A program made the position numbers and the translations under genes. A stretch of 43,520 bases of DNA. Source: a virus. Location of the stretch: positions 1 through 43,520 of IMG/VR virus record IMGVR_UViG_3300025728_000349. One strand, given 5' to 3'. Below the pieces are notes generated by a model. The model saw only the letters and a program-made list of their open reading frames with translations. It was not told the origin of the DNA and made no database searches. Position 1 is the first letter of the stretch, and every line of letters begins with the position of its first letter. Shown here piece by piece: positions 1,775 to 22,963 of the stretch.

Positions 1775-1777
1775 AAC

Positions 1778-2335: not shown

Positions 2336-2350
2336 TATGAAATCCCTATC

Positions 2351-2935: not shown

Positions 2936-2938
2936 TGG

Positions 2939-2983
2939 TTTAGATTTTTTCTAAATATAATTAACACTTAGATTTTATCTAAC
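2939..2983. promoter_or_regulatory. Twin palindromic operator candidates between cI and cox, prophage 1
   Basis: Two near-identical palindromes lie between the divergent genes. The first is TTTAGA-N5-TCTAAA at about 2939-2955; the second is TTAGAT-TTT-ATCTAA at 2968-2982. Both contain TAGATTTT(T/A)TCTA and their centres are 28 bp apart, close to three helical turns. The spacing and position fit cooperative binding of CI dimers over the divergent lysogenic and early promoters. Binding is inference. Confidence 0.6.
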
Positions 2984-3060
2984 TAACCTTGCTCCGTAGT
3001 TTGAATGTTGCCTTATATAACCCTGTATTGCCGTACAGGTTAACTCACGGAGTTTGCACT

Positions 3061-3282
3061 ATGCGCCCCAACATTACAATCATCATCCCAGAGCCCTACT
3101 TGCCACTAGATGAGTATTGCCGCCGCACTGGCACCAACAAAGAAACCGCTAGAAACCTGATTGAATACGGTAAATTGCCCATTAAACCGAAAGGAAAGCA
3201 GAAAAAAGGGTTAGTTGAAATCAACATGGCCGCGCTTACCATTCAGGCATTAAGCGAATGTGATATTTCGCTTAACGCGTAA
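3061..3282 (+). CDS. cox: Cox/Apl-type excisionase and early regulator, prophage 1
   Basis: A 73-residue basic protein, first gene of the rightward early operon. The start at 3061 is chosen because a 72-codon longer reading is not conserved, whereas this start aligns exactly with the 73-residue prophage 2 homologue, and it is preceded by GGAG at suitable spacing. Both share MRPNITI, the PYLP(L/I)DEYCR helix and the C-terminal AALTVQALSEC-like helix. In P2 and 186 this protein directs excision and represses the lysogenic promoter. Here it sits opposite CI across the twin operators. Confidence 0.85.
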   Translation: MRPNITIIIPEPYLPLDEYCRRTGTNKETARNLIEYGKLPIKPKGKQKKGLVEINMAALTIQALSECDISLNA

Positions 3283-3312
3283 ATCATCCTATCGATTAGC
3301 TAGAGGCGAATC

Positions 3313-3822
3313 ATGTTTGATTTTCAGGTTTCCAAACATCCCCACTATGACGATGCGTGTCGTGCATTTGCTAAACGTCACAACATGGCGAAGCTGGCAG
3401 AGCGTGCGGGTATGAACGTTCAAACGTTACGTAACAAGCTCAACCCGGAACAGCCTCACCAGTTTACGCCGCCTGAATTGTGGCTGCTGACTGACCTGAC
3501 CGAAGACTCGACTCTCGTCGATGGTTTTCTGGCACAGATTCATTGTTTGCCATGTGTGCCAGTGAACGAGCTGGCAAAAGATAAATTACAGGCCTATGTC
3601 ATGTGCGCCATGAGTGAACTCGGTGAACTGGCAACCGGCGCTGTATCGACTGAGCGCATGACCTCTGACCGTAAGTACAACATGGTTGAAAGTGTTAATT
3701 CAGGTATTCGCATGCTGTCTCTTTCCGCTCTCGCGTTACAGGCTCGGCTTCAGGCTAACCCGGCAATGTCCAGTGTCGTCGATACCATGACTGGCATCGG
3801 CGCAACCTTTGGTTTGGTGTGA
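3313..3822 (+). CDS. cII: CII-like transcription activator, prophage 1
   Basis: A 169-residue protein of the 186 CII (Phage_CP76) family, which activates transcription of the repressor to establish lysogeny. The N-terminal half carries a helix-turn-helix (MAKLAERAGMNVQTLRNKLNP) typical of the family, and 169 residues is the size of 186 CII. It follows cox by 30 bases, with an AGAGG ribosome site. The prophage 2 copy (167 residues) is colinear throughout. It appears intact. Confidence 0.88.
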   Translation: MFDFQVSKHPHYDDACRAFAKRHNMAKLAERAGMNVQTLRNKLNPEQPHQFTPPELWLLTDLTEDSTLVDGFLAQIHCLPCVPVNELAKDKLQAYVMCAMSELGELATGAVSTERMTSDRKYNMVESVNSGIRMLSLSALALQARLQANPAMSSVVDTMTGIGATFGLV

Positions 3823-3829
3823 GGTGAGT

Positions 3830-3943
3830 ATGCTGACTAAAGAGCCATCTTTTGCGTCACTACTGGTTAAACATAGTCCTTCGATGCACTACGGTCACGG
3901 CTGGATTGCAGGTCAGGACGGTAGTCGAGGCTTTCCAATGTGA
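3830..3943 (+). pseudogene. fil: 5' fragment of a fil (filamentation) gene
   Basis: An open frame of 37 codons beginning MLTKEPSFASLLVK and continuing HYGHGWIAGQDG. This is the start of the P2/186 Fil family as I remember it; Fil of 186 inhibits host cell division. The family pattern is lost after about codon 33 (GSRGFPM, stop), where the sequence joins a DinI-like gene. The normal gene is about 75 codons. The remnant starts 8 bases after cII. Confidence 0.65.
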
Positions 3944-4103
3944 ATTAACTCGGCGGATACAGTGTGTATTTCCGTCAACGCGAGTTACTGTCAAAAAGGG
4001 CTCCATAACTGGTGTGGAGTTGGTGGGATTCGATAAAGATACAGACCGTGAGGCGTTGGATAGTATCCTTCAGGAAGTTTGGGAAGACGAAAGCTGGCGT
4101 TAG
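3937..4103 (+). pseudogene. 3' fragment of a DinI-like gene
   Basis: The frame ending at 4103 encodes CELTRRIQCVFPSTRVTVKKG and ends EALDSILQEVWEDESW, the C-terminal two thirds of the DinI family (LTRRI ... ILQETWESADDW pattern). Upstream of about 3937 the frame runs out of frame through the fil remnant and has only a TTG as possible start. In Fels-2/186-type phages a DinI-like gene lies after replication gene A, so the junction marks a deletion that removed A and the small early genes. A chimeric 83-residue product from the TTG is possible but unlikely to be functional. Confidence 0.7.
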
Positions 4104-4125
4104 TTTCTGAGAAATTAATGAAGAT

Positions 4126-4159
4126 CAACCCCATGTTTGATAGTATGGGGTTGTTTTTT
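4126..4159 (+). terminator. Rho-independent terminator after the early remnant
   Basis: AACCCCAT (4127-4134), a 10-base loop, ATGGGGTT (4145-4152), then GTTTTTTA. It closes the cox-cII-dinI transcript and separates it from the accessory gene at 4186. Confidence 0.8.
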
Positions 4160-4185
4160 ATGGGAATTACACACAAAGGAAAATA

Positions 4186-4917
4186 ATGGATACCGTAATT
4201 GCTTTTTTATCTCTGGCTCTCTTTATTGCTTTTATCGTAGGTTTAATTAAACCGTCTCTGGTTCGTATGCCTAACCGTAAGCGCTCCAGTTTGGTTTATC
4301 TCGGTGGTTGTCTGGCTCTGGGCGTTGTAGGCTCAACCTTATGGCCAACTGAAAAAAGTCAAACTGTAGCAAAACATGACGCACCAGCGGTTGTTGCGTC
4401 GCCAGCTACACCAACGTTTGAATACTCAGATAAGACTCTTAAGGAATACCGCAATGAGTCAAAAGAAAACCGACATAAAATCATTAATAGTTACGTTGAC
4501 TTCAAAAGCGTACCAATCAGCGCTAGGGATGCTTTTTACGCATGTATGAGTGAATTCAGTTTTACTAAGGATGATGCGTTAAAAGTCGGTGATGTGCTTG
4601 GATGGTGTTTTAATGACTTTGAGAGTGATCCCAACTCACTGAATGATAAAATTAATCTTGATACATTCAAGGGTAATTTTAGTGGTTGGGATGGTTCTTA
4701 TCGTCCGCTAGAAAAACTGATTAAAGCCAGCATGAATGATGATTCCTCTTATAAGCACGTCGAAACGGTCTATCATCTAATTTTGAACAAAGACCCTCAC
4801 GCCATTGTAAGAACTACATTTCGTGGTACTAATGCTTATGGTGGGATCGTTAAAGAAAGTATTTCGGCTCGAGTTAATGTGAAAACGGGTGAGATTATTT
4901 CAATTATAAATAATTAA
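4186..4917 (+). CDS. Membrane-anchored protein of unknown function, rep-to-cos accessory slot
   Basis: A 243-residue protein. Residues 2-23 and about 38-55 are hydrophobic (FLSLALFIAFIVGLI; LVYLGGCLALGVVGSTLW), separated by a short basic loop (MPNRKRSS), so two N-terminal spans with a soluble C-terminal domain of about 185 residues. No catalytic motif is recognised. It has its own AAAGGA ribosome site and follows a strong terminator, so it probably has its own promoter. It lies where P2 carries tin and old, between the replication gene and cos, a known place for phage-exclusion genes. Function unknown. Confidence 0.75.
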   Translation: MDTVIAFLSLALFIAFIVGLIKPSLVRMPNRKRSSLVYLGGCLALGVVGSTLWPTEKSQTVAKHDAPAVVASPATPTFEYSDKTLKEYRNESKENRHKIINSYVDFKSVPISARDAFYACMSEFSFTKDDALKVGDVLGWCFNDFESDPNSLNDKINLDTFKGNFSGWDGSYRPLEKLIKASMNDDSSYKHVETVYHLILNKDPHAIVRTTFRGTNAYGGIVKESISARVNVKTGEIISIINN

Positions 4918-4928
4918 TGAAATGTACT

Positions 4929-4955
4929 CAGCACCGGGAGTGAATTTCGGTGCTG
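4929..4955 (+). terminator. Hairpin after the membrane gene (weak terminator)
   Basis: CAGCACCG (4929-4936) pairs with CGGTGCTG (4948-4955), an 8-bp stem with an 11-base loop. Only a mixed T/A tract follows, so termination may be inefficient and the HNH gene downstream could be cotranscribed. Confidence 0.5.
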
Positions 4956-5012
4956 GTTAATATTAAGTGTATGTTGTGATTTATTAGCATGTTGGATTAT
5001 ATAGGGGCATAG

Positions 5013-5726
5013 ATGAGATTAAATACACATTGTGTCTATTGCGGAGTCCTCATGAACAGGGTGGTAAACGACCCGGCAAGCAGAACTGTTGAGCATATGA
5101 TTCCACAGGTTTCAGTCTCTTTTCGGCGAACGAACGGCGAGGGGGATTTTTACGCATGTAAACAATGCAATAGTCAGAAAAGTAGGGCTGATGAGGTTTT
5201 GGGTGTCATTTGTCGTATGGTTGGTGAACATTCAGAGGGAAGTTTTGACGCTATTAATCGATTTCATAAAGCTTTAGCAAGAAAAGATTCTAAATTCATT
5301 CAGGCATATGAAAGTGTTAGTCATAGCAAAAAAGGGACTTCTTTACGTTTACCATTAACAGCAGAAGAGATTTATCGCTATGGTGAATGGTTAGGGAAGG
5401 GTACTTATTTTATCCAAAATGGTGTTTTGCTGCCTGAGAACCAATTGGTTTGGGTCGAGCTTATAGGTCATGAGGAAGTTAATTATATAAAAGACCAATA
5501 CAAGCGCCAGCATGGTTCCGAAGCGTTTGATGATTTATCAAGAAACAACGAAATTCCGAATATTAACAAAGAGTCTTTTTTAATATCTGGTACGGGTGCT
5601 AGGGGGATGTTTATATGTTTTAATCGAGTGATGATGTTTCATATACAGATTTTAGCTAAAACATACGTCAATAAAAATAAGTGCGATAAAGCATTGCGAA
5701 AGCTTAGAAAACAGATCCGTAAATAA
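5013..5726 (+). CDS. HNH-type endonuclease-like protein, rep-to-cos accessory slot
   Basis: A 237-residue protein with an N-terminal HNH/zinc module: C7-x2-C10, E27-H28-MIPQ, C49-x2-C52-N53-x2-K56. The EHxIP and CxxCNxxK elements are typical of HNH nucleases in which the cysteines hold a structural zinc. The remaining 170 residues are not recognised and could be a sensor or DNA-binding part. It is preceded by AGGGG five bases before the ATG. The position just upstream of cos equals the P2 tin/old region. It could be a defence nuclease, a packaging-associated HNH protein or a homing-type nuclease; the extra C-terminal domain and the slot favour defence, as inference. Confidence 0.7.
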   Translation: MRLNTHCVYCGVLMNRVVNDPASRTVEHMIPQVSVSFRRTNGEGDFYACKQCNSQKSRADEVLGVICRMVGEHSEGSFDAINRFHKALARKDSKFIQAYESVSHSKKGTSLRLPLTAEEIYRYGEWLGKGTYFIQNGVLLPENQLVWVELIGHEEVNYIKDQYKRQHGSEAFDDLSRNNEIPNINKESFLISGTGARGMFICFNRVMMFHIQILAKTYVNKNKCDKALRKLRKQIRK

Positions 5727-5819
5727 ATTTAAAGGGTGCATGCATCTGATGCATCAGTTTGCATTTAATTAAATGGTTCTTTTTTGCTTGTGAGCGCCAG
5801 TCTTGGCGGTGCTCTGGGA

Positions 5820-5960
5820 GCCTAATGCACCTGCATTAAAACCGACCCACGAAGCGGGCAGGCGTGGCGGGGTAAGCATTGCGCGCTGAGCCCGGTGTTT
5901 AATTTATTTATTCAGCGCCTGAGCGCGTCCCTGTGGCGCTGTAATGGTCTCGGGTGAATA
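5820..5960. other. cos: cos packaging site, 186 type (nick region 5861-5879)
   Basis: The gene-free stretch 5727-6054 contains GGCGTGGCGGGGTAAGCAT at 5861-5879. As I remember it, the 19-base cohesive end of phage 186 is GGCGTGGCGGGGAAAGCAT and that of P2 is GGCGAGGCGGGGAAAGCAC, so this differs from 186 at one base. Flanking repeats TGCGCGCTGAG and CTGAGCGCGT, separated by an AT-rich segment, fit terminase binding elements. The site lies between the early region and gene Q as in P2. It looks usable, although the terminase of this prophage is broken. Confidence 0.8.
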
Positions 5961-6054
5961 ACGGGCGGGGAAAGATAACGGCGGCGTGTCGTCGCGCTGA
6001 GGGCGTTGTGTGCGATAGGGGAAGAGCCGCCACGATGGGCGGCTGAAGGTGGGA

Positions 6055-7089
6055 TTACTCAGCGGGATCCAGACTATATTTTTCGAAGCGGATAATCTCA
6101 TCACCCGCCCACTCGTTCAGCTCCATGAATCGCGTCTGTAGTGGCGTCAGCTCATTACGCACAAAGACCTTTGCCACCTTCTCAACATCCCCCACTGAGC
6201 CGACATTCTCAGGCTTGCCGCCCATGAGCTGGAACGGGATTCGGTGCGCGTCGAGCAGGTCAGCCGCGCTGACTTTCTTGATATTAAAAAAATCATCTTT
6301 CGTCGCGACTTCGCTCAATGGCACAATTTTAATCCCGTCCGGTTTTCCGTGTGGTGCGTAGAAAAACAGATTTTTAAAATTGCCGAGTCCCTTCGAGTCG
6401 CGCATCGCTTTACGCAGCGATTCGACGTCGGTGCTGTTCTGCGCGGCGTCGGTCACGTACATGATGTACCCGGCATGCGCGCCGTTCTGGTAATACTTGC
6501 GACGAAACAGCGTCGCGGATTCATTCAGCCAGGCTGAATTGAGCGCGCTCAGGTATTCCGGCATTCCGTAAAGCTCCTGATTAATATCGGGCTCAAGCAG
6601 GTGGAAGACGGAACCGGCCGAAAATTCGTGCGGCTGTGTGTAACTCTGAATGTACCAGTACACATCATCTTCGACGCCCCGGCGGGTATATTTTGCCGGG
6701 GAGGTTTCCAGCTTTAATGACTTACCGGTCAGGCCGCGACGCTCTTCGAGAAACGCGTTACCAAACACCAGGTAATCGAGCACAAACCGGCTGAAGTCCT
6801 GACGGGATAACAGCGGGTGAGGAATGTAGGTCGACACCAGAATATTACGCTTAACGTAAATCGGCGAGCTGTGGTGAACGGCGGCGCGCATACTCTTCGC
6901 CAGCCCGGAGAAACTCACCGGCGGCTCGTACCACTGACCGTTGTCGATGCATTCCACATAATCGAGAATATCGCGGCGGTCGAGCACTGGCGTCGGCTCG
7001 CCAAAGGTGAACGCCTCCATGCTCTGTGCCGGGGCGGCGGTTTGGTTTTGGGTGCGCGGCTGCTGGCGTTTGTTATTTTTCCTGCTCAT
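6055..7089 (-). CDS. Q: Portal vertex protein, prophage 1 (P2 gpQ)
   Basis: A 344-residue portal protein, the same length as P2 gpQ, with the start at MSRKNNK. It would form the head-tail connector ring through which DNA is packaged. Family landmarks are present: FTFGEPTPVLD near the N-terminus, HPLLSRQDF, YGMPEYLSALNS, FRRKYYQNGAHAG, the RDSKGLGNF motif and LLDAHRIPFQLMG. The start ATG overlaps the stop of the terminase remnant (TAATG), as in the normal P-Q operon. It is intact although its packaging partners are gone, which suggests recent decay or selection. Confidence 0.92.
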   Translation of the reverse strand: MSRKNNKRQQPRTQNQTAAPAQSMEAFTFGEPTPVLDRRDILDYVECIDNGQWYEPPVSFSGLAKSMRAAVHHSSPIYVKRNILVSTYIPHPLLSRQDFSRFVLDYLVFGNAFLEERRGLTGKSLKLETSPAKYTRRGVEDDVYWYIQSYTQPHEFSAGSVFHLLEPDINQELYGMPEYLSALNSAWLNESATLFRRKYYQNGAHAGYIMYVTDAAQNSTDVESLRKAMRDSKGLGNFKNLFFYAPHGKPDGIKIVPLSEVATKDDFFNIKKVSAADLLDAHRIPFQLMGGKPENVGSVGDVEKVAKVFVRNELTPLQTRFMELNEWAGDEIIRFEKYSLDPAE

Positions 7090-8203
7090 TAGTTCCACTC
7101 CATAATACTGGATGACTGCTCACCGGTTGCGGCGGTCAGGGGCTCATTGATTAATACGTGCATGGTTGCCCACGCGAGGTCGGCGTGACTGGCTTCCTCG
7201 GTGCGGCTGGCCTCATAGGTCGAGCTGCGGCCGCTGCTGGTCATGGTTTTACGAATCGACATAAACGACTGCGTGGGGTCGGTCGCGCTGACGTCGTACT
7301 CGAGGCACCCGCGACGAATGGTGTCTTTGGCTTTGAGCACCATTGAGGTTTTCATTTCCGGCGTGTAGCGGATTTCACGCGCTGCCGGGTAGAACGAGCG
7401 CACCAGCTGGAAGACGCCCTGACCGAGCCCGGTCGCATCGATGCCGATATACTCGACGGTATATTTCTGCGTGAGCTCGCGGATGGATTCGGCCTGCTGA
7501 GCAAAGTCCATCCCTTTCCACTGGTGGCGCTCGAGGATGCGGAATTTGCCACCGGCAACGACCGGCGGCGCGATGACAACACAACCGGCACTGTCGCCCT
7601 GTAATGACGGGTCGTAGCCAATCCATACCGGACGGTGACCGAATGGCCGGTCGGCGAATGGCTGGTAGTCCTCCCATTTTTCGAGGCTGTCGACCATGCA
7701 GCGCTGGAGCTCTTCGAACGGGAAGACCGACGCTTTATCGTCGACGAACTCGCACATAAACAGGTTGCGGAACTCTTCGACGCTGTTCTCGCGCTTCAGC
7801 GTATCGATGTTAAACAGGGTGCACCCTTTGGCGAGTGCGTCCTCGATGGTGACAATCTGCCGCCACTGGCCGTCCGGGCAAGCGACGCCCTTCGCGAGTG
7901 CGGCGTGACTGATATCGATATCGACACGCTCGCTCTTGTCTGTGCGTCCCTTGTTGAACTGTTCGCCAGACCAGAATTGATAGGCACCGTGTGCCAGCGA
8001 TGAGGGGGTCGAAAAATAGGTCGTGCGTAAATGCTCCTGTGACGACATGCCACCGGCGACGCGCTTCAGCTTCTGGAAGTTGGGGATCCAGAATATTTCA
8101 TCGACATACAGGTCGCCGTTGTGACTCTGTGCCGTATTGGCGTTGGTACCGAGAAACATCAGCTCGGCACCGTTATTGCCGAGAACAATCGGGTCGCCGG
8201 TGA
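7089..8203 (-). pseudogene. P: Terminase large subunit, C-terminal fragment (P2 gpP)
   Basis: Homology to gpP begins at FTGDPIVLGNNGAE, which corresponds to about residue 223 of the 591-residue prophage 2 terminase, and runs to the normal C-terminus. The Walker B strand (YVDEIFW) and nuclease aspartates (GYDPSLQGD; IGIDATGLGQG) remain. The N-terminal helix-turn-helix and the Walker A region (SRQIGATW in prophage 2) are lost. The frame continues to 8312 only because it is open antisense to the S fragment, so the apparent 407-residue product has about 36 spurious leading residues. No ATPase activity is expected. Confidence 0.88.
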
Positions 8204-8205
8204 AA

Positions 8206-8469
8206 GCGAAAAAAGGCCGGGTTAAGCGGGAAATGTTCGCAAAGCTCCGCACCAGTCGCTTTATGAAAGCCACGGCGGGAAATGACGCGGCGGTCGTGGA
8301 ATTTACCGGCAAGGTGCAACGGATGGTGAATGTGCATCAGTACGGCCTGAAGGATAAGCCTGGGCCTGATAGAGCCGAAGTAATATATCCATCAAGAATT
8401 TTATTAGGTATTAATAGTAAAGATTGTGACATGATTACCGATGTGATCATTGGGGATTTAACAAGGTGA
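8206..8469 (+). pseudogene. S: Virion morphogenesis/tail completion protein, 3' fragment (P2 gpS)
   Basis: The plus-strand frame encodes KKGRVKREMFAKLRTSRF, then a VHQYGLKD motif and an SRILLG motif, ending IGDLTR. These are the C-terminal landmarks of P2 gpS. About 88 codons remain of roughly 150. It is joined tail-to-tail with the terminase fragment at about 8203-8212, so the deletion took out the 5' part of P, all of O, N, M, L, X, lysis genes and R, and the 5' part of S. Confidence 0.78.
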
Positions 8470-8478
8470 GATAATAAC

Positions 8479-9216
8479 GTGCGTGAACTATTTGGGAGTA
8501 TGTTAACTGGTTTTATTCATGGCGTTTTTTTTTGCAAGCTTAAAAAAATAATAATCTGGCTTAGGCCTTTTTCATTTATAAATATTGTTTTTTATATTTT
8601 TTGTGTTCTTTGCTTTACTTTTTTTATTTTTTTCTTAGCTCGACTATTCATGAATGCTGAGGGAGACCACTATGTCAGTTTCGTTGCTCTTCTGGCAGCA
8701 ACAGCAACGCTTACAACTCTAATATATAACCTCAGGCGTCATATGTCCGAGGATTATTTTAAAGATGGCAAAGAGTATCTGAAGCGTGCCTATGAAGTTC
8801 TTGAACCTAAAATCGGAGAGAAAGCCCCCCCAAATGATAGAATGACATGGCTTACAGCAGCTAGATTCATTGGTATTGCCAATCGATTAGGTAATAAAAT
8901 AATAATGGATTCACATAAGGAGTCATTTCTTGAGGAACAAGAATTTTGGAAGTCCAAACTTCGAAATATAATTAAGGATTTTGTGTGGGATTACTATTGT
9001 GATGGGGTTGGTAAATTTAAAATTTGGACTCCCCATGATCGTGAACCTATTGCAGAACCATCAATTTACGCCATTCATAAGTTTATTGAATGGAATGATG
9101 ATTATACCGATCCATTACCAGACATTAGGTTTTCCAATCAAGAATTGGAAAAACTTAGAAGGCATTTTCCATCATTGGCTCAGCTCCTTTCTCAAGTGCA
9201 AGGTAATAGAAATTGA
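8479..9216 (+). CDS. Two-span membrane protein of unknown function, S-V accessory slot
   Basis: A 245-residue protein with two strongly hydrophobic stretches near residues 31-57 (INIVFYIFCVLCFTFFIFFLA) and 65-83, then a soluble C-terminal region of about 160 residues rich in charged and aromatic residues. The GTG start has AAGGTGAG nine bases upstream, inside the end of the S fragment, so it may be translated from the late transcript as well as from its own. It is AT-rich and clearly foreign to the late genes. It occupies the position of P2 orf30, between S and V. A strong terminator follows. Function unknown; a membrane effector or sensor of a defence module is one possibility. Confidence 0.75.
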   Translation: MRELFGSMLTGFIHGVFFCKLKKIIIWLRPFSFINIVFYIFCVLCFTFFIFFLARLFMNAEGDHYVSFVALLAATATLTTLIYNLRRHMSEDYFKDGKEYLKRAYEVLEPKIGEKAPPNDRMTWLTAARFIGIANRLGNKIIMDSHKESFLEEQEFWKSKLRNIIKDFVWDYYCDGVGKFKIWTPHDREPIAEPSIYAIHKFIEWNDDYTDPLPDIRFSNQELEKLRRHFPSLAQLLSQVQGNRN

Positions 9217-9252
9217 GCTGTAAATATGAGGTTTAAATCGTTTATTGTTAAT

Positions 9253-9284
9253 ATGCCATCATACCTAATGATGGCATGTTTTTA
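9253..9284 (+). terminator. Strong rho-independent terminator after the S-V membrane gene
   Basis: ATGCCATCAT (9253-9262) pairs perfectly with ATGATGGCAT (9268-9277), five-base loop, followed by GTTTTTAA. It insulates the membrane gene from the convergent HEPN gene that ends at 9304. Confidence 0.85.
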
Positions 9285-9303
9285 ACCACTAGCTTTAATT
9301 GAG

Positions 9304-10053
9304 TTATAATAAAGCATTTTTAGGGAGGTCATCCAAGAATCTTGATAATTTCCTGTTGTAATCAACCTCATCGAATCCAAATAATGAAAAGTAATAAATA
9401 GCTCGAATCAAAGTCTTTCCGCAAAATTCTACCACGTTAAAACTTACGTTCTCAGTTGTTGATGAGCCATGAATTATGTTTGATCGGGCAGTATAAAGCT
9501 CTAATGCCTGCTTACCAATAGCATTATCAACCCCTAAATGAGTGATATTTAAATTTGATACCCTTTTGCAGAATGTATCTGTTATATTTCCATCTTTAAA
9601 AATAACTATTGCCTCTATAGAAATAACTAGTTTTTGTATTTTCTGCTGGATATCTCTTTCAATTACTGCCTCGCCATACCACATTAGAGCGCGTTCAAGG
9701 CGTTCAATCACTCTTGTTTTTGGTGTGGATTTTGAAAGGATCATTTCTGGTATTTTCATAGATAGGTTAATAATATTACCTGCAAGTTCTTTACCAATTA
9801 AAAAGTTGCTCCAAAACTCCTTTGATCTAGAGTGCTCAATAGCGAAACTATATCTTGTGGATTTAGTGAATTTATTTATATTATCGGAATGCAAGTGAAA
9901 ATCAAATCTATGTCTGCGAGCTTCACCAAAGGAAAGCAATGGTATTGCATTGACGGATTGAGTTGAACCAAATAATCTAATTATATTCAAAGTTGCATCT
10001 CGAGCTTTTTCTGCTAGACCATAAGCAAATAACTCGGTGCATTTCATCTTCAC
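9304..10053 (-). CDS. Apea-like HEPN-domain protein, C-terminal portion of a frame-interrupted gene
   Basis: The open frame gives 249 residues from a GTG at 10053. It carries the Apea-like HEPN landmarks: an RLERALMWYGEA helix near residues 118-129, a VISIEAIVIF helix near 143-152 and the RNase-type motif R190-SNII-H195 followed by GSS. The R-x4-H motif is the catalytic signature of HEPN ribonucleases. The frame stays open to about 10113 without a start (…DVNYWLEIKV…), so the true N-terminus lies upstream in another frame. Adding one A to the A7 tract at 10092-10098 and one to the A7 tract at 10228-10234 gives a continuous 458-residue protein with the upstream frame. HEPN RNases are common effectors in abortive infection. 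Confidence 0.75.
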   Translation of the reverse strand: MKMKCTELFAYGLAEKARDATLNIIRLFGSTQSVNAIPLLSFGEARRHRFDFHLHSDNINKFTKSTRYSFAIEHSRSKEFWSNFLIGKELAGNIINLSMKIPEMILSKSTPKTRVIERLERALMWYGEAVIERDIQQKIQKLVISIEAIVIFKDGNITDTFCKRVSNLNITHLGVDNAIGKQALELYTARSNIIHGSSTTENVSFNVVEFCGKTLIRAIYYFSLFGFDEVDYNRKLSRFLDDLPKNALL

Positions 10054-10195
10054 TTTAATTTCAAGCCAGTAGTTAACATCATAAAGTCTTGTTTTTTTGA
10101 AAGCGATAATTCATCAGCTACGTCATCTAAATTCTCGATCGGGACGAGGCGAATGTTAGCGCTCAGATCAATAGCTTCATCAAGATTAAAAATTG

Positions 10196-10678
10196 TTATC
10201 GGGAATCTAAATGTATGTATTGAAATATTTTTTTAAAAAATGAATTTTTTTTGTTAAGTATGTTCTTGACTTCATCAAAAAGGAATGCCCACTGATCTCC
10301 ATGCTCATCATTGATATCAATGAATCTATCTAGGTCGTTGTTCAAATATTCATACAGGGTCTCTTCCATTAGTGATTTCAACTCAAATGGAATACAGGGG
10401 ATATTATTTGATTTTTGTACTACATCCAAGATTGCTGTCATTAATTTATAGGAACGTTCGGAGTAATGAAGTTGGTAAAAGCAATGCACCCCTCTTTTTC
10501 TTTTCTCTTCCATTATTACAGTAAGGTGCCTGGGCGCATTAATGGTTGTAAGAATTAAATTGGCTTTTTGTATTTCTGCCAGATAAAGCTGGTGATTGTT
10601 TCTAAAAAAGATGTCGGTTTGAAGAAACTCGCGAAGTAACAAAGTAATTTTCTCTTTGAATTCATTAGATATCACCAT
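10196..10678 (-). CDS. N-terminal portion of the frame-interrupted HEPN gene
   Basis: A 160-residue open frame starting MVISNEFKEKI, mostly helical, ending shortly after a homopolymer-rich stretch (T8 at 10245-10252 and T7 at 10228-10234 on the plus strand). By itself it is not recognised. With one extra A in the 10228-10234 tract it reads on through ISIHTFRFPITIFNLDEAID into a middle segment open to about 10098, and with a second extra A into the HEPN domain. I therefore read 9304-10678 as one gene of about 458 codons that is either pseudogenised, slippage-dependent, or wrongly called at homopolymers. If read as it stands it is a separate small protein. Confidence 0.6.
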   Translation of the reverse strand: MVISNEFKEKITLLLREFLQTDIFFRNNHQLYLAEIQKANLILTTINAPRHLTVIMEEKRKRGVHCFYQLHYSERSYKLMTAILDVVQKSNNIPCIPFELKSLMEETLYEYLNNDLDRFIDINDEHGDQWAFLFDEVKNILNKKNSFFKKIFQYIHLDSR

Positions 10679-10839
10679 TATTCATCTCCTTCATGTTTAT
10701 TTTTAATTATCCTAGGTATGATCTTTAAGACATTGTAAATACTACTCTATCCTCCAAGAATATTCATGCCTTGTTGTACTGACTTTCATACATATGAATA
10801 GGTTTGTAATCCATCGCTGGTAGCTGCATTCTTTTTCTC

Positions 10840-11475
10840 ATGAATATATTAACGAAAATCCAAGATCTCGCGCGGTTGTTGCGCAATCTAATCCGCACTG
10901 GTGTTATCGTCGAGGTTGACCTTGATGGCGGGCGCTGTCGTGTGCAGACCGGCGGCATCGTTACCGACTGGCTTCAGTGTCTGACCACCCGCGCCGGTCG
11001 TTCTCGTTCGTGGTGGGCTCCATCAGTGGGCGAGCAGGTCTTACTGCTGGCCGTTGGCGGCGAGCTCGATACCGCCTTTGTGCTGCCCGGTATTTTCTCT
11101 GACGACCACCCCGCGCCGTCGGCGTCGGCCGATGCATTTCACATCACCTTTCCTGATGGGGCGGTTATCGAGTACGAGCCGGAGACCGGCGCGCTGACCG
11201 TGAGCGGTATTAAAACCGCCGATGTGTCGGCGTCGGATTCCATCACCGTCACGGTACCGGTTGTGACGGTTAAAGCCGAGACCCGCATCACCCTTGATAC
11301 CCCTGAAGTGGTCTGCACTAACAAGCTGAAAACCGGCACTCTTGAGGTGACTAAGGGCGGGGAGATGAAAGGCGATATCAAGCACACCGGCGGCTCGCTC
11401 TCTTCAAACGGAAAAGTGCTGCATCTGCATAAACACCCCGGCGACAGCGGCGGTGAAACCGGGACACCACTATGA
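10840..11475 (+). CDS. V: Baseplate spike protein, prophage 1 (P2 gpV)
   Basis: A 211-residue homologue of P2 gpV, the membrane-piercing spike. It has the N-terminal OB-fold (MIRTGxIVEVD-type start, RVQTGG, WWAPSVGEQV, TAFVLPGI), then the triple beta-helix repeats and the apex motif H195-L-H197-K-H199-PGDSGG that binds a metal ion in P2. It is full length (P2 gpV is 211 residues). It starts the retained V-W-J' block; 161 bases of AT-rich sequence separate it from the HEPN gene, which faces away from it. Confidence 0.93.
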   Translation: MNILTKIQDLARLLRNLIRTGVIVEVDLDGGRCRVQTGGIVTDWLQCLTTRAGRSRSWWAPSVGEQVLLLAVGGELDTAFVLPGIFSDDHPAPSASADAFHITFPDGAVIEYEPETGALTVSGIKTADVSASDSITVTVPVVTVKAETRITLDTPEVVCTNKLKTGTLEVTKGGEMKGDIKHTGGSLSSNGKVLHLHKHPGDSGGETGTPL

Positions 11476-11819
11476 CAACACGCTACACCGGCATGAACCG
11501 CGAGACCGGGCGCACCATTACCGACGCCGACCACATCCGTCAGAGCTGTGGCGATATCCTGCGCACACCGGTCGGCTCGCGCGTGATGCGCCGCGATTAT
11601 GGCTCGCTGCTGTTCTCCCTGATTGATATGCCGCAGACCGACGCGCTGAAGCTGCAAATCATGTGTGCCTGTTATATGGCGCTGCTGAAGTGGGAGCCGC
11701 GCATCAGTATCAGCTCGCTGACGGTTGAGCGTCAGTTTAATGGTCAGATGATTGTCGAGCTGCACGGCGAGACAAAAGACACCGGCCAGCCCCTTTCTCT
11801 AACCATTCCTGTGAGTTGA
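11472..11819 (+). CDS. W: Baseplate wedge protein, prophage 1 (P2 gpW)
   Basis: A 115-residue gp25-like baseplate component, the same length as P2 gpW. Landmarks are the IRQSCGDILRTPVGSRVMRRDYGS motif region and the C-terminal strands. Its ATG overlaps the V stop by four bases (ATGA), showing translational coupling in the late operon. Intact. Confidence 0.92.
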   Translation: MTTRYTGMNRETGRTITDADHIRQSCGDILRTPVGSRVMRRDYGSLLFSLIDMPQTDALKLQIMCACYMALLKWEPRISISSLTVERQFNGQMIVELHGETKDTGQPLSLTIPVS

Positions 11820-11823
11820 ATTT

Positions 11824-12181
11824 ATGGCAACCATCGACCTGAGCCAGCTCCCCGCGCCTGACGTTGTGGAAACGCTGGATTTTGAAACCATCCTTGCTGA
11901 GCGCAAAGTGACGTTTGTCTCTCTGTATCCTGAAGACCAGCAAGAGGCCATCGCCCGGACGCTCGCCCTTGAGTCTGAGCCGGTGACAAAGTACCTGGAA
12001 GAAAACGCCTATCGCGAGGTCATCTGGCGTCAGCGGGTGAACAATGCCGCTAAAGCGGTCACGCTGGCCTATGCCGAAAATAACGACCTTGACGTCATCG
12101 GCGCAAACTTCAACGTTGAGCGCCTTGTAATTACGCCCGCCGATGAATCGGCCATACCTCCTGTGGCGGCGGTGATGGAAT
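11824..12181 (+). pseudogene. J: Baseplate protein J, 5' fragment
   Basis: About 119 codons match the beginning of P2 gpJ (IDLSQLPAPDVVE, FETILAERK, ALESEPVTKYLEENAYRE, LVITPADESAIPPVAAVME). P2 gpJ is about 300 residues. After VME the frame changes to eight unrelated residues and stops at 12207, because a deletion has joined J to the end of gene D. Confidence 0.85.
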
Positions 12182-12250
12182 GGCTTCACGACGGCTGTAG
12201 AGCTTGAGGTTATGCTTTCCGGAGTGGAGTATGAAGAGGAGAGAGAGTAA
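12182..12250 (+). pseudogene. D: Last 22 codons of tail gene D
   Basis: In the frame starting at 12182 the sequence reads GFTTAVELEVMLSGVEYEE and then stops at 12250. It resembles the C-terminal end of P2 gpD and lies directly before ogr, where D ends in P2. It shows that the J-to-D deletion removed I, H, G, FI, FII, E, T, U and nearly all of D. Confidence 0.7.
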
Positions 12251-12315
12251 TGACTTCGCAAATTGCGAATTTTGGAGTGTGATTTTTTCTCTTTTTGAGA
12301 TTCTAGAGGTGCATC

Positions 12316-12537
12316 ATGTTCCATTGTCCGAAATGTCAGCACGCGGCGCATGCGCGCACCAGTCGTTATCTAAGCGAAAATACGAAAGAGCGTTATCACC
12401 AGTGCACTAATATTAATTGCAGTTGCACATTTGTGACAATGGAATCGGTGGAGCGCTATATTGTTACTCCCGGGATTGTCCTTCCAGCGCCGCCGCACCC
12501 GTCATCAAGTGGGCAAAACTCATTGCCTTGGCTATAA
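12316..12537 (+). CDS. ogr: Ogr/Delta zinc-finger activator of late transcription, prophage 1
   Basis: A 73-residue protein with the Ogr zinc site C4-x2-C7-x22-C30-x4-C35. P2 Ogr is 72 residues. It binds upstream of late promoters and contacts the RNA polymerase alpha subunit. The ATG follows AGAGGTGCATC. It is the last gene of the element before the terminator and att, as in P2, and appears intact, so it could in principle turn on late promoters of another P2-type phage in the same cell. Confidence 0.92.
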   Translation: MFHCPKCQHAAHARTSRYLSENTKERYHQCTNINCSCTFVTMESVERYIVTPGIVLPAPPHPSSSGQNSLPWL

Positions 12538-12542
12538 AACGA

Positions 12543-14163: not shown

Positions 14164-15207
14164 TTAGTCAATTTTTAAGTTTTCTAAGTTTCTTAATGGA
14201 TTCAGTTTTGTTGCATCTTCTAAGTGATTTGGTGCGAAATGAGCATAGCGCATAGTCATTTTAATATCAGTGTGCCCCAGAATACGTTGAAGCACGAGTA
14301 TATTCCCTCCGTTCATCATGAAATGTGAGGCAAAAGTGTGTCTTAGCACATGGGACAGTTGTCCTGCAGGTAGATTCAACTCTGCACGTTCAACAGCTTT
14401 TCGGAACGCTGAATAACATGGTTGAAAGATACGTCCTGCTTTTTCTGGTTTCGGCAGTGAATCAAAAAATTCCTTGCTGATAGGTACTGTTCTATTACGA
14501 TTCCCTTTCGTTTTAAAAAAACTAACTTTTAGGTTTCGGATTTGCTTTGTGGTAAGTGATTCTGCTTCATCCCAACGCGCACCAGTTGCCAGGCATGTGC
14601 AGGCCACCCAAAATGTGCTTTCGTTTCTGCTTTTTCGGCACTCTTCCAGCAAGCGGGTAATTTCATCGTCTTCAAGATAAGTTAACTCCGCCTCTTCTGA
14701 TTTGAATGGTCTGAGATCGAGAAGGGGATTATCAAGTTTCCAGTGACCCAGGCGTTTCAGCTCGTTGAACACTGCCCTGAAATACGCCAATTCAAGATTC
14801 ATTGTGCGCGGGGAAACTTGTTTTACTCGTGCTGTACGAACGATTTCGCCCGAGAGCCTTTTTTTTCTATAGGTGGAAAACATAGTTGCACTAAATTCAT
14901 GTGCAGTTGGTTCGCCCATGCTTTCACATGCAAATTCCATCGCTCCTTTCCGTTTTTCGCCATCATCCAGTGTTACGCCGTGTTCATCAAACCACTGCTG
15001 AACAAGGTCGCGAAGTTTACGACGGTCTTCTTTGCCATCGAGCCACGGTTTCACATGGATGTTCTCCATGATGTGGTTTTCGTAAGCCTGCGCTTCGCCT
15101 TTCGTGGAGAAGGTTTTGCGAATACGTTTTGCTGGTTTCCCTTTTGGTTTACCTTCAGGGTAAAAATCCAGTAACCACTTGCTGTCTGGCTGCTTTCTGA
15201 TGCTCAT
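14164..15207 (-). CDS. int: Tyrosine-recombinase integrase of prophage 2
   Basis: A 347-residue P2-like integrase with R211 (GARW), K234 (KTKGN), H286 and R289 (HVLRH), H312 (LGHT) and Y321 (MRYAHF). It aligns over the whole length with the prophage 1 integrase; the catalytic C-terminal third is nearly identical and the N-terminal domain more divergent. Its start codon shares a base with the CI stop, so CI and int are translationally coupled, as expected for the lysogenic transcript. Confidence 0.95.
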   Translation of the reverse strand: MSIRKQPDSKWLLDFYPEGKPKGKPAKRIRKTFSTKGEAQAYENHIMENIHVKPWLDGKEDRRKLRDLVQQWFDEHGVTLDDGEKRKGAMEFACESMGEPTAHEFSATMFSTYRKKRLSGEIVRTARVKQVSPRTMNLELAYFRAVFNELKRLGHWKLDNPLLDLRPFKSEEAELTYLEDDEITRLLEECRKSRNESTFWVACTCLATGARWDEAESLTTKQIRNLKVSFFKTKGNRNRTVPISKEFFDSLPKPEKAGRIFQPCYSAFRKAVERAELNLPAGQLSHVLRHTFASHFMMNGGNILVLQRILGHTDIKMTMRYAHFAPNHLEDATKLNPLRNLENLKID

Positions 15208-15800
15208 TATGAATTGGTGATAGTCATTACAACGCGGCCAATAACGTCAATATCTTCAAGCGCACAATCAAAGGCCATGCCCACACCACTGACACGCACT
15301 TTCTTAATTGGGATGCGAGTTAACGTTCTGATGCTAATTTTGCCCTCAACATTGACTAGCCACTCACCATCAAAAACCTCAGCGAATGTTTGATCGAGGA
15401 TGTATTGAGTTTTGTCGTCTTGAATACACAGCGGGTTTTCGGGTAACGGAGTACCAGCCCGGAAAAGGACTTTATCAAACATCACATAGCCAGAATCATA
15501 GAGTTGTCCGTCAACTAGTTTTTTTCTAGTGAACTTCATTATGTCTAGCGTGTCGTTTTCGCATTTTTTACCTACGCCCGTGGCAAGCCACTCCAGGTTA
15601 AATCCTGTTTCAAGAGCGCATTTTACAACGATGTCTGCGGGGAAAACTCCACGTGTTCTGCGGGCTGACATGCTGCTAGAGGCAATGTCCAAATAATCTG
15701 CCAACTGTAATGATGTAGTGAAACCATATGCTTCACACACGCGATCCAGAACTTCAGCGCTATTTGTAGGTAGCGTTGTTTTTCGTTTTTGTTGGGTCAT
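15207..15800 (-). CDS. cI: CI repressor of prophage 2 (186 CI family)
   Basis: A 197-residue repressor. Helix-turn-helix at about residues 28-60 (LQLADYLDIASSSMSARRTRG), signature NLEWLATG and a C-terminal domain beginning LYDSGYVMFDK, colinear with the prophage 1 repressor. In 186 the CI protein is not cleaved by RecA; induction goes through a LexA-controlled antirepressor. The LexA-box gene at 21426 may play that part here. It diverges from cox across 15801-15907. Confidence 0.9.
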   Translation of the reverse strand: MTQQKRKTTLPTNSAEVLDRVCEAYGFTTSLQLADYLDIASSSMSARRTRGVFPADIVVKCALETGFNLEWLATGVGKKCENDTLDIMKFTRKKLVDGQLYDSGYVMFDKVLFRAGTPLPENPLCIQDDKTQYILDQTFAEVFDGEWLVNVEGKISIRTLTRIPIKKVRVSGVGMAFDCALEDIDVIGRVVMTITNS

Positions 15801-18493: not shown

Positions 18494-19286
18494 AACCCCG
18501 CTGAAATGGGTGGGCAGCAAAGCCCGCCTTATGCCACAGCTATTGCCACATTTGCCGGAAGGCAAGCGCCTGATTGAGCCGTTTGCCGGTTCCTGTTCAG
18601 TCATGATGAATACTGATTATGACGAATACCTGATTGCAGACGTTAACCCGGATTTAATCGGGTTTTATCGTGCTGCAGCTGCAGCGCCGCTTGAATTAAT
18701 TGACCGTGCAAAGCACCTGTTTGAAACGTTTAATACTGAGGATGGCTATTACGATAGCCGTGATTCTTTCAATCATGACACCGATCAGGAATGGCGCCCG
18801 GCGCTGTTCCTTTTCCTGAACCGTCACGGTTTTAACGGCCTGTGCCGCTACAACAAATCAGGCCGTTTCAATGTGCCTTATGGCAGATACAAAAAACCTT
18901 ACTTTCCTGAGGATGAAATAAAAGCGTTTGCTGAAAAGGCAAAACGCGCCACTTTCGTATGCGCAAATTATTCCGTAACGCTTGATATGGTTCGGGATGG
19001 GTTCGATGTGGTTTATTGCGATCCACCTTATTTGACCGAATCCGGGAACTTTACCGCCTACCACGAGCGCGGTTTTAACCATATGGATCAAGGCCGCTTA
19101 GCGCGTAAACTCCGCCGCCTGGCGGGGAAAGGAATTAGCGTTATCGCTTCAAACAGTAATCTGGATACTGTGCGTTCTCTTTATGCTGATTTTGAGGCCG
19201 TAAGCATAAGTGCGCCGCGTAGTGTTGGCGCTGCCGCGAATAGCGTGAAAACTGCCGCTGAACTTATTTTAAAGGCTGGCGTATGA
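18483..19286 (+). CDS. dam: DNA adenine methylase (Dam family), phage-encoded
   Basis: A 267-residue N6-adenine methyltransferase; start at [13 protein letters not shown]. Motifs in Dam order: PLKWVGSK (6-13), SAM-binding EPFAGSCSV (32-40), motif II acidic residue ADVNPD (52-57), catalytic DPPY (180-183). The target is probably GATC by family. It could protect phage DNA from restriction, mark it for mismatch repair, or tune replication. The ATG overlaps the preceding stop by 11 bases and its own stop overlaps replication gene A by four, so it is made with the initiator. Confidence 0.9.
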
Positions 19287-21307
19287 CGCTGGCCGTTAAT
19301 GAAAATAGTCATGCCGTCGATAGTTGGCGGAGTGACACATTCGCACCGGGTACGCCTGCAGGTGCAACAATCACAGAGCGCCGTCTATGGGCTAAAAACC
19401 CGCAGGATTACGCCTGGCGCTCACAATATCTTCACGAGATACCCGACTGGTTAGCCGGGTATTTTGGCACCCGCTACGAAAAGCTACTGGCTGGCCGTGA
19501 TGGCCGTCGTCGTGCCAATACGTTCCTGCGCAAGACTATCGGCGGGAACGTATTACCACGCCTGCGGAAAGTGGCAGCTCGTTATCGTCTGGCCGCTGAT
19601 GCTTCTGATCTTCCATTTGGTAAAGCGCTGGGGCGTTTGCCATCCCTTGATCGTACAGACCTGAAAAAGCTGGCCGATCAGGTATCGCGCTGGATGGCGG
19701 AATGTCTGTATGAATTTGCTGACCGGTTGCCTGTTGGCACGGATGATGAAAAAGAACTGTATCAACGAACTATGGAGGCTTACCGTAATTTGGGTGAATG
19801 CTCTCTGATGCTGAACAATCAGCCGCCGTACTGGAAAGAGTTTGAGGCGAAAGGTCTGCTGGAACAGCAAAAGGCTGAATCTGGCATTTTGCGCATGATT
19901 GCCCCGGAGTGGTGGCGGCTGCGCTTAAAGCGCGCGCGCGATGTTCAGCGTGAACATTTTGCGATCGCTGTTGGCCAGGTTCAGAAAGCGGCCAGTGCGT
20001 ATGTTTCCCGAAGCACCCTGGGCGAGTGGATAGAGCAGAAAAAACGTAATGCGGAGTTTTTCAAGAAATTTGACCTGATTAATGACCAGGGCGATCGGAT
20101 ATCGCTGGCCGATATGGTTCATGGCAGCGTGGCCAATCCGGCGATCCGACGCTGTGAACTAATGGTTCGCATGCGTGGGTTTGAGGATATCGCAAACGAA
20201 GAGGGGCTGGCGGGGGAGTTCTACACCATCACAGCGCCTTCACGCTTCCATGCCGTACATAGCAAGGGCGGATTTGTGTCGCAGTGGAGCGGCTGCAGCC
20301 CGCAGGACACCCAGCGCTATTTATGCGGCGTATGGGCAAAAGCCCGTGCAGCAATCTCCCGCGCAGATATTCATGTCTTTGGCTTCCGGGTTGTAGAGCC
20401 TCACCATGACGGCACCCCACACTGGCACATGCTCCTTTTTATGCGTCCGCAGGATGTTGATGTGGTGCGCGATATTCTTTGTTATTACGCCAGAATCACC
20501 GATTCAGAAGAGTTACAGACACCCCACGCGCTTAAGGCGCGTTTTCACGTTGAGCCTATCGATCCGGAAAAAGGTTCGGCCACTGGCTATATCGCGAAAT
20601 ACATTTCCAAAAATATTGATGGGTTTTCCCTGGACGGTGAAACAGATGATGAAACCGGGGAAAGCCTGCGTGATATGGCCAAATCTGTAACGGCATGGGC
20701 ATCCCGCTGGCACATTCGCCAGTTTCAGCAAATCGGTGGCGCGCCGGTAACGGTCTGGCGCGAGCTGCGCCGCCTTCCTGGTGAAGAACAGATTCTGCTA
20801 ACGGAAGATATGGATAACGTGCGGTTCGCTGCTGATGTTGGAGACTGGCGCGCATACACCGAATGCCAGGGCGGGGCGTTTGTTGCGCGTAAGGATCTGA
20901 CTGTTCGCCTGGCTTATGAGATTACAAAACAGGGTAACGAGTATGCAGAAGATGTGCAGCGCGTTCAGGGTGTTTACTCACCGCATATTCCAGATTCAGG
21001 GATTTGTACGCGCCTGGTGAAGTGGCAGAAGGTTGCGAAGTTGGCCGAAGCGGCAGCGGAGGCTGGTTTTGACCTTGACCTTAATCACCCTTGGAGTTCT
21101 GTCAATAACTGTACGGAGGGCGGAACCCGGAGGCGGTTAAAACTGGAACTGAATAAACGTGGGTACGTTGGTACTGACGATGAAGTAGCCATTTTGATGC
21201 GCGGTAGCGGGCTAATGTATGGCCGTTCGTCGCTGATTTATAGAAATGGCCAATTGCTGGAGCGGAAAGGCAATGTGATGCATGAACAGTGGCCGGGATG
21301 GCAGTAA
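19283..21307 (+). CDS. A: Replication initiator protein A, HUH endonuclease
   Basis: A 674-residue rolling-circle initiator of the P2 gpA/Rep superfamily. The HUH motif is H380-W-H382 in PHHDGTPHWHMLLF, and the paired catalytic tyrosines are Y436 and Y440 in YIAKYISKN, the YxxxY arrangement of P2 gpA. It nicks the phage origin (often inside its own gene) and primes single-strand displacement. It ends the early operon. Prophage 1 has lost this gene. Confidence 0.93.
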   Translation: MTLAVNENSHAVDSWRSDTFAPGTPAGATITERRLWAKNPQDYAWRSQYLHEIPDWLAGYFGTRYEKLLAGRDGRRRANTFLRKTIGGNVLPRLRKVAARYRLAADASDLPFGKALGRLPSLDRTDLKKLADQVSRWMAECLYEFADRLPVGTDDEKELYQRTMEAYRNLGECSLMLNNQPPYWKEFEAKGLLEQQKAESGILRMIAPEWWRLRLKRARDVQREHFAIAVGQVQKAASAYVSRSTLGEWIEQKKRNAEFFKKFDLINDQGDRISLADMVHGSVANPAIRRCELMVRMRGFEDIANEEGLAGEFYTITAPSRFHAVHSKGGFVSQWSGCSPQDTQRYLCGVWAKARAAISRADIHVFGFRVVEPHHDGTPHWHMLLFMRPQDVDVVRDILCYYARITDSEELQTPHALKARFHVEPIDPEKGSATGYIAKYISKNIDGFSLDGETDDETGESLRDMAKSVTAWASRWHIRQFQQIGGAPVTVWRELRRLPGEEQILLTEDMDNVRFAADVGDWRAYTECQGGAFVARKDLTVRLAYEITKQGNEYAEDVQRVQGVYSPHIPDSGICTRLVKWQKVAKLAEAAAEAGFDLDLNHPWSSVNNCTEGGTRRRLKLELNKRGYVGTDDEVAILMRGSGLMYGRSSLIYRNGQLLERKGNVMHEQWPGWQ

Positions 21308-21361: not shown

Positions 21362-21404
21362 TTTACATTTAGTGCTTTAATGTATACTGTGTATTTATAC
21401 AGTA
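21362..21404 (+). promoter_or_regulatory. LexA (SOS) box overlapping a promoter
   Basis: TACTGTGTATTTATACAGTA at 21385-21404 fits the LexA consensus CTGT-N8-ACAG with the flanking TA bases as well. TATACT at 21383-21388 can serve as a -10 and TTTACA at 21362-21367 as a -35 (15-base spacer). A 64-codon gene starts 22 bases after the box. It lies between rep A and the portal gene, like the LexA-controlled p95 promoter of phage 186. Confidence 0.85.
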
Positions 21405-21425
21405 TATCGTTTTCGTGAGGGCTTC

Positions 21426-21620
21426 ATGGATATGTTAGAGGCGACAGCACAGCTGGAGCGTATTGAGCTACTGGCAAAAATCGCCCATGCCAGCGACTGC
21501 AACACAAAAGAAAAAACGATCGCACTGGTTTGGATTGGTGAGATTGTTGAAGGAATGCGAGTAGAAATAAAAAACCCCCAGAGCGGGGGCGTTTCACGCG
21601 GCGGGTGCGGCTTTAAGTAA
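21426..21620 (+). CDS. SOS-controlled small protein, candidate antirepressor (64 aa)
   Basis: A 64-residue protein, helical for the first 45 residues (LERIELLAKIAHASDCNTKEKTIALVWIGEIVEGM region) with a glycine-rich tail encoded across the terminator of the convergent ogr gene. GTGAGG lies five bases before the ATG. Direct LexA control and position between rep and cos/portal equal those of 186 tum, whose product inactivates CI after DNA damage; but Tum is larger and I see no sequence likeness. So the call of antirepressor is inference from regulation and location. Confidence 0.7.
   Translation: MDMLEATAQLERIELLAKIAHASDCNTKEKTIALVWIGEIVEGMRVEIKNPQSGGVSRGGCGFK
21567..21591 (-). terminator. Terminator of the leftward late operon (after ogr)
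   Basis: On the minus strand CCCCC-GCTCT-GGGGG followed by TTTTTT, just past the ogr stop. It lies inside the 3' end of the convergent SOS gene, so collision or shared use is possible. Confidence 0.85.
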
Positions 21621-21863
21621 GTCCAGCGCCATTTGCTTTTGGTTCGGTGAAAGCGTGCTAAGCAGCTGCTGAACCAGAGCATCACCCGTTTTAGCGCTGG
21701 GGCTGAGAGTGTGGGAGAAAGTCAGATTCATAACAAAGGTATGCCCACACTCCACATCTGAACAGGCGCAGTAAATATCAGCAATCTGCCGGTGCTTCCG
21801 GTTTGTCTTACGAATGATGGCCTTTGCGCCGCATTCCGGGCATTCAATTTTTAGTACGCGCAT
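21594..21863 (-). CDS. ogr: Ogr/Delta-like late transcription activator, prophage 2
   Basis: An 89-residue protein from the start MRVLKIECPECG at 21863, chosen because GGAG lies suitably upstream and the zinc finger then sits at the N-terminus as in Ogr. Zinc ligands C8-x2-C11 and C34-x4-C39 (CSDVECGHTF). The C-terminal half (PNQKQMALDLLKAAPAA) is longer than in P2 Ogr. It lies downstream of portal on the leftward late transcript, unlike P2 where ogr follows D; this would give positive feedback on its own synthesis. Confidence 0.85.
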   Translation of the reverse strand: MRVLKIECPECGAKAIIRKTNRKHRQIADIYCACSDVECGHTFVMNLTFSHTLSPSAKTGDALVQQLLSTLSPNQKQMALDLLKAAPAA

Positions 21864-21913
21864 ATTCCATTCTCCGGCCGTCAAATTATGCCTGGATTTT
21901 AGCCTGTTTTGCC

Positions 21914-22963
21914 TCATGCCGCACCCTTATCAGTTGATTCATCGGCGAAATTCAAATGCAGGCGAGCAGGAATTTCGGGATCGCAGTTAACCGCTGCCGC
22001 AAATCGTCGCTGGATAGGACGCGATTCACTTTTTTTATACACCCGCTCTGCTTTTTCAGGGTCGCCAAGTCCGGCAGTATTCTGCGGAACAATACCCGCC
22101 AGCCCGGCAGGGAAGCGGTGGGCGTTCAGTATGTCCTGCGCGCTGATGTTCTTCACGCTGGCAAATTCATCCTTTGCCGAAATATCCCCCATTTCGATGA
22201 ACTTGATAGCGTCACCTTCTCCACCTGGAATGTTCACCAGGATGGTGGAGAAATTCCCGATCCCTTTGCTGTCTCGCAGCTGCTGTTCAATCTCTTCTTC
22301 CATTTCATCTGTCATGCTGGGGTCGCGTGTATACAGAATGCCGCCCGTGTGTGCGCCGTTGTGATAGTAGCGGCGGCGGAAAATGACCGCCTCGCTGTTC
22401 AGTAGCGCGGAATGTACTCCGCCGATGTAGTCCGGCAGGCCATAAATGTGCTGCTGCGGGTCGTACATCTTGATAAAAATAATGTCCTCTTCCGGGTAAA
22501 TCAGTGGCTCACCTTCCTGCAGTACCACGTAATCCCCCGGCACGTTGCGATCTTCATCGCGTACCTTGCGGCGGCGCAGGTATAGGCCTGGCAGCGCTTC
22601 CAGCCCGATAACATCACCCCAGCCATTGCGTACTTTGGCGATCGCAACGTCGCCAAAGGTTAAAAAGTCGAATGTTGCCGCTTCCAGTTCGTCATAAGTC
22701 AGACCGCCGCCCTGGTAATCGGACATAATCATATTTTTACGGGCGTGGATGATGCCCCCGTGCTGGCCATTCAGGTTAATCAGCTGTGACAGCGCCAGCC
22801 GGTCAATCGGCAGGGTGAAATGGTCTGCGCCATTGTCGTACCAGATATCACGGTAGTCCGTGCCGGTGGTCAGAATCGGTTCTGGCTTTCCGAAAGAAAT
22901 GATGCTCATTTTTTTTGACTGTTCGGCGCGCTGCCCGTGTTTCACAAATTTCTTTTTCTTCAT
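21914..22963 (-). CDS. Q: Portal vertex protein, prophage 2 (gpQ)
   Basis: A 349-residue portal of the P2 gpQ family: basic N-terminus (MKKKKFVKHGQR), SFGKPEPIL, YGLPDYIGGVHSALLNS, FRRRYYHNGAHTGG, LRDSKGIGNFSTIL and LNAHRFPAGLAG, aligned throughout with the prophage 1 portal but clearly divergent. The start overlaps the terminase stop by four bases. It forms the packaging channel and head-tail connector. Confidence 0.93.
   Translation of the reverse strand: MKKKKFVKHGQRAEQSKKMSIISFGKPEPILTTGTDYRDIWYDNGADHFTLPIDRLALSQLINLNGQHGGIIHARKNMIMSDYQGGGLTYDELEAATFDFLTFGDVAIAKVRNGWGDVIGLEALPGLYLRRRKVRDEDRNVPGDYVVLQEGEPLIYPEEDIIFIKMYDPQQHIYGLPDYIGGVHSALLNSEAVIFRRRYYHNGAHTGGILYTRDPSMTDEMEEEIEQQLRDSKGIGNFSTILVNIPGGEGDAIKFIEMGDISAKDEFASVKNISAQDILNAHRFPAGLAGIVPQNTAGLGDPEKAERVYKKSESRPIQRRFAAAVNCDPEIPARLHLNFADESTDKGAA

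Follow-up and report, generated by a model that had tools for sequence, protein, structure and literature searches.

The LexA box and the genes around it

Within the window, by which we mean the whole stretch of 43,520 nucleotides analysed, the replication gene A of prophage 2 (GPA, 19283-21307, plus strand; PF05840, E 2.6e-109) is followed directly by a small module consisting of a LexA (SOS) box and an open reading frame of 64 codons, which runs on the plus strand from an ATG at 21426 to a stop codon at 21618-21620 (tumA, 21426-21620). The box, TACTGTGTATTTATACAGTA (21385-21404), scores 26.5 bits in a LexA weight matrix derived from 16 SOS boxes of E. coli, which is near the top of the range of the reference boxes (13.9-27.0), and a box stands at the equivalent place in relatives. 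The runner-up across the 43.5-kb window reaches 13.3 bits, and the best site per simulated window averaged 11.8 and never exceeded 15.3 bits (40 Markov-1 sequences of 43.5 kb each); TACTGTGTATTTATACAGTA is no chance match. It is a near-perfect LexA box and the sole strong one in the window.

A putative tumA promoter can be placed at 21362-21390 (plus strand), with the -35 element TTTACA (21362-21367), a spacer of 17 bp and the -10 element TACTGT (21385-21390), which is at the same time the left half-site of the LexA box. This layout corresponds in position to the p95 promoter as annotated in phage 186, where the LexA left half-site also doubles as the -10, and relatives carry TTTACA or TTTCACA at equal spacing. 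The original prediction, which had the box overlap a plausible -10, is favoured by the p95-like arrangement, whereas a generic sigma-70 scan did not flag the tumA promoter. The same prediction placed a consensus LexA box 22 bases before the gene: box, gene and their proximity were confirmed, the exact figure was not, as box and ATG are separated by 21 nt. The good ribosome site that it claimed is found in a Shine-Dalgarno-like GAGGG (21417-21421, plus strand) just 5' of the ATG.

On the opposite strand, convergent with tumA, lies a gene for an ogr/Delta-like late-gene activator (21594-21863, minus strand; PF04606, E 7.8e-20), whose start was picked to fit the 270-nt gene of ESSI2_ev040. Its 3' end overlaps tumA by 27 nt, and its intrinsic terminator lies at 21574-21590 (minus strand). 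In P2 and 186 the ogr gene is found beside the tail genes, whereas the ogr-like gene of prophage 2 lies downstream of Q and ends the P-Q late operon (21594-22963), an arrangement that could provide a positive feedback on late genes. The module lies between gene A and the packaging genes; by analogy with 186, it would also be situated before cos. The window region remained unmatched among E. coli genomes at megablast sensitivity.

The presumed target of the gene product, the CI repressor of prophage 2 (CI2; 15207-15800, minus strand), yielded only PF07022 and PF16452 in a domain search; an S24 autocleavage domain was not found. This is in line with the parallel drawn earlier to 186, where CI itself is not cleaved, and a separate SOS input would therefore be needed, as in 186.

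The TumA protein and its non-conserved tail

The 64-codon gene is real because its product is homologous to phrog_698 (E 1.6e-19). It aligns with the N-terminal ~45 residues of 186 Tum, although the identity is low (about 30% over ~45 residues), with STM2728 of Fels-2, and further with unnamed open reading frames of ESSI-2, ESSI2_ev040, vB_YenM_324 and S.Kent 1-2-1; a LexA box of similar type precedes each of the aligned GenBank homologues. In the PsP3 record, the corresponding gene is labelled tumA, "similar to 5' end 186 tum; UV induction of prophage", and is followed by tumB, the DinI half. Taking this naming together with the homology, we identify the window gene as tumA. A DinI gene was sought up to 900 nt downstream of tumA and was not found there, nor was one found in prophage 2 as a whole; since the DinI half is absent both as a fusion and as the next open reading frame, the window protein is TumA and not a full Tum. 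The missing DinI domain also explains its size, correctly described before as less than half that of Tum (64 versus 146 amino acids). The proposal of a new, minimal antirepressor has to be abandoned as far as novelty is concerned: the Tum N-terminal part already exists as a separate gene in PsP3 (TumA) and Fels-2 (STM2728).

AlphaFold2 predicts a two-helix hairpin (helices at residues 3-21 and 27-49), with mean pLDDT values of 91, 96, 91, 96 and 86 in the first five 10-residue blocks. A PDB sequence search gave no match, and a fold search returned generic helical hairpins only, all with E > 0.8. The conserved domain comprises residues 1-49 (21426-21572). Beyond it, from about codon 50 on (residues 50-64, ~15 codons; 21573-21620), the reading frame runs through the terminator hairpin of the ogr-like gene, which is kept in most relatives with a variable loop. 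This tail drops to a pLDDT of about 50, compared with ~90 or more for most of residues 3-49, and is missing from the 186, Fels-2 and Klebsiella-group proteins. It is terminator readthrough and not a conserved part of the protein; the working part of TumA is about 49 residues long.

The shared 3' ends, with the last tumA codons serving as ogr terminator, would also suit the view that the LexA box is real while the open reading frame gives no functional product, the transcript acting mainly as antisense to the ogr-like gene. As the N-terminal domain is conserved as a protein in 186, Fels-2 and the Klebsiella group, where no ogr gene lies at this place, we regard this as extremely unlikely.

Distribution of TumA and its association with 186-type CI

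Scans of viral and genome contigs revealed 312 loci with the TumA N-terminal domain, representing 82 distinct sequences, and in nearly all of those with intact upstream sequence a strong LexA box lies 38-46 nt ahead; Fels-2 is an exception with 61 nt between box and TumA reading frame. The loci comprise 81 Tum-DinI fusions, 81 with an adjacent DinI reading frame and 150 with TumA alone, counts which are shaped by the queries chosen. The convergent ogr-like gene is present, as in the window, in 86 of the 150 TumA-alone loci. An arrangement lacking DinI is frequent, though seldom annotated. The order A - LexA box - tum is common to 186, Fels-2, PsP3, ESSI-2, ESSI2_ev040 and vB_YenM_324, which supports the claim that the gene occupies the same interval as 186 tum.

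Could TumA modulate the SOS response itself, acting on RecA filaments in the manner of DinI and leaving CI untouched? Such a role is suggested by the DinI half present in the Tum-family genes of 186, Fels-2 and PsP3, and by a weak match of TumA to the DinI/Tum family phrog_189. However, this match covers only positions 7-45 of a profile with 151 positions, outside its DinI part; Pfam and NCBIfam contain no model matching TumA, DinI included, so that the window protein does not class with the DinI family; and of the 150 TumA-alone loci only one has DinI elsewhere, namely this very window with its prophage 1 remnant. We consider this explanation improbable.

A second survey was seeded on gene A, hence independently of TumA, and covered 58 loci with sufficient flank. 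A TumA match was found in 44 of the 49 loci with a 186-type CI and in none of the seven with a P2-type C (Fisher p 3e-6), where a LexA box was likewise not found. In three of the five TumA-less loci with 186-type CI, a strong box precedes a short open reading frame that resembles a diverged TumA. It should also be noted that several AT-rich P2-like loci with a 186-type CI (L362, L364, L366, L373) contain short open reading frames resembling a very diverged TumA, preceded in the first three by a strong LexA-type box.

A second alternative makes TumA an SOS-induced accessory protein, for example a growth inhibitor or an exclusion factor, dispensable for prophage induction. As is generally known, small SOS-driven accessory genes are frequent in temperate phages, and the very different CI types found beside identical TumA domains (see below) would fit such a function; the homology to the Tum N-terminus, the fixed position and the near-perfect co-occurrence with 186-type CI, but never with P2-type C, speak against it and leave it with a slim chance.

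The proposed SOS switch

We therefore very probably deal with the switch by which prophage 2 responds to SOS, a LexA-controlled TumA antirepressor acting on a 186-type CI. The LexA-controlled antirepressor of the original prediction is favoured by the Tum N-terminal homology, the box and the association with 186-type CI. In the lysogen, LexA would be bound to 21385-21404 and block the overlapping promoter. Upon DNA damage, RecA-stimulated cleavage of LexA would free this promoter and the 64-amino-acid TumA would be made; the predicted helical hairpin would then bind CI2 and prevent it from holding its operators, whereupon pR would fire and the lytic programme start. We infer binding of LexA, binding of CI2 and induction at this locus from the above comparisons. 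A function is thereby offered for a small open reading frame that is left unannotated or hypothetical in the records, and in a large group of P2-like phages the 186-type SOS switch lacks a DinI partner.

One TumA and many CI repressors

One set of observations is at odds with the SOS switch reading. In the Klebsiella group, 41 loci with an identical TumA N-terminal domain carry 24 CI types that are more than 25% apart, and in 41 loci of the Fels-2 type, again with an identical domain, there are 18 such types; the CI proteins beside identical TumA domains differ by up to two-thirds. Such a spread is unexpected for a CI-specific TumA, unless a conserved feature is recognised, and counts against the antirepressor. 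A relative, L008, provides a similar case: its TumA N-terminal domain is identical and the DNA of the tumA region 97-100% identical, whereas the CI-operator region has about 60-69% DNA identity and its CI is 65% identical to that of prophage 2 (78% to that of prophage 1). An antirepressor role of TumA in both cases would require that it tolerates this difference in CI.

The occurrence of identical TumA beside widely differing CI suggests that TumA may be broad-range, recognising a conserved feature of the diverse 186-type CI proteins, perhaps the DNA-binding domain; we put this forward tentatively and hold it to be somewhat less probable than a narrower range. If it were true, one SOS-induced TumA would free all 186-type prophages of a cell irrespective of immunity type, and co-resident prophages that differ in immunity would be coupled in their induction. 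TumA distance tracks the CI N-terminal domain more closely than the C-terminal one (partial Spearman 0.58 versus 0.07, 143 loci), but this signal lies mainly between clades: within the clade of the window the values are 0.47 and 0.39, and in the fused clade it is not clear (11/200 and 21/200 permutations). Because clade structure confounds the correlation, it should be taken as a lead only. Among the phages with identical TumA (L217, L214, L212 and others of the Klebsiella and Fels-2 groups), the median p-distance of the CI C-terminal domain is 0.68, and that of the DNA-binding N-terminal domain is far lower (0.27-0.28).

The prophage 1 remnant

A possible second target of TumA is the CI repressor of prophage 1 (CI1; 2351-2935, minus strand), which is 62% identical to CI2 over 172 amino acids and 78% identical to the CI of L008, the relative with the identical TumA N-terminal domain. 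Prophage 1 (743-12540) is a 186-like remnant with int, CI, apl and cII, followed by a fil-tum deletion junction, beyond which come tum with its DinI half only, an orf97-like gene, Q, a P reading frame that is short, baseplate-type genes and an ogr/B-like gene. In blastn, the match to 186 runs through cII into fil (3921) and resumes inside tum (3919 onward); the tum remnant, joined to fil, retains the DinI half only (3919-4103, plus strand; NCBIfam DinI, E 1.4e-8). Judged from the alignment, the TumA half of this tum was lost in the deletion together with its LexA box and the replication genes. The terminase reading frame is short, visual inspection of the open reading frames revealed no capsid genes, and prophage 1 looks defective. 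Its release upon SOS induction would depend on TumA from prophage 2, which may derepress it, although this is less certain than the action on prophage 2 itself. The other CTGT-N8-ACAG match of the window (3023-3038), in the CI-apl interval of prophage 1, was rejected as a LexA box with a score of 9.5. The palindrome CCCTGTATTGCCGTACAGGT at 3021-3040, in the same interval and a poor LexA match, may serve CI1 or Apl as an operator.

Comparison with known systems

Tum of phage 186 is an antirepressor under LexA control, which inactivates CI (PMC7708051, PMC3121763). The p95-tum SOS operon shares with the window the LexA box on the promoter, the location 3' of gene A, a homologous N-terminal domain and, as partner, a same-family CI that cannot be cleaved. 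It differs by a C-terminal DinI domain, only the N-terminal part being represented in the window, where a convergent ogr-like gene lies downstream instead and prophage 2 lacks a DinI gene.

The split tum of PsP3 (TumA) and Fels-2 (STM2728) resembles the window in that a separate antirepressor reading frame of ~60 amino acids lies behind the LexA box, but in both the DinI reading frame (TumB) comes directly next, whereas the window is without one. For PsP3, the antirepressor activity was assigned to the upstream half, according to a personal communication cited by Lemire et al. 2011 (PMC3121763). In PsP3, divergence is strong in TumA but not in TumB, and the PsP3 CI apparently has a duplicated helix-turn-helix region (L312, 3219-4079). 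In the Fels-2-like prophage DuoHS, tum mutants as well as mutants in LexA cleavage (lexA(Ind-)) fail to induce, the main text leaving unspecified which of the two tum halves had been removed (PMC12055606); the E. coli HS record shows split tum reading frames of the Fels-2 type. Small LexA-controlled antirepressors are also known from the Gifsy phages (GfoA, GftA), some of them active on non-cognate repressors (PMC3121763). These belong to a different phage family; like AntC of N15, they are compared with TumA as described in PMC3121763.

The same layout as in the window, A - LexA box - TumA alone - convergent ogr-like gene - Q, is found in ESSI-2 (Cronobacter), ESSI2_ev040 (Escherichia) and vB_YenM_324 (Yersinia), whose TumA proteins, mostly unannotated there, are 33-37% identical to that of the window.
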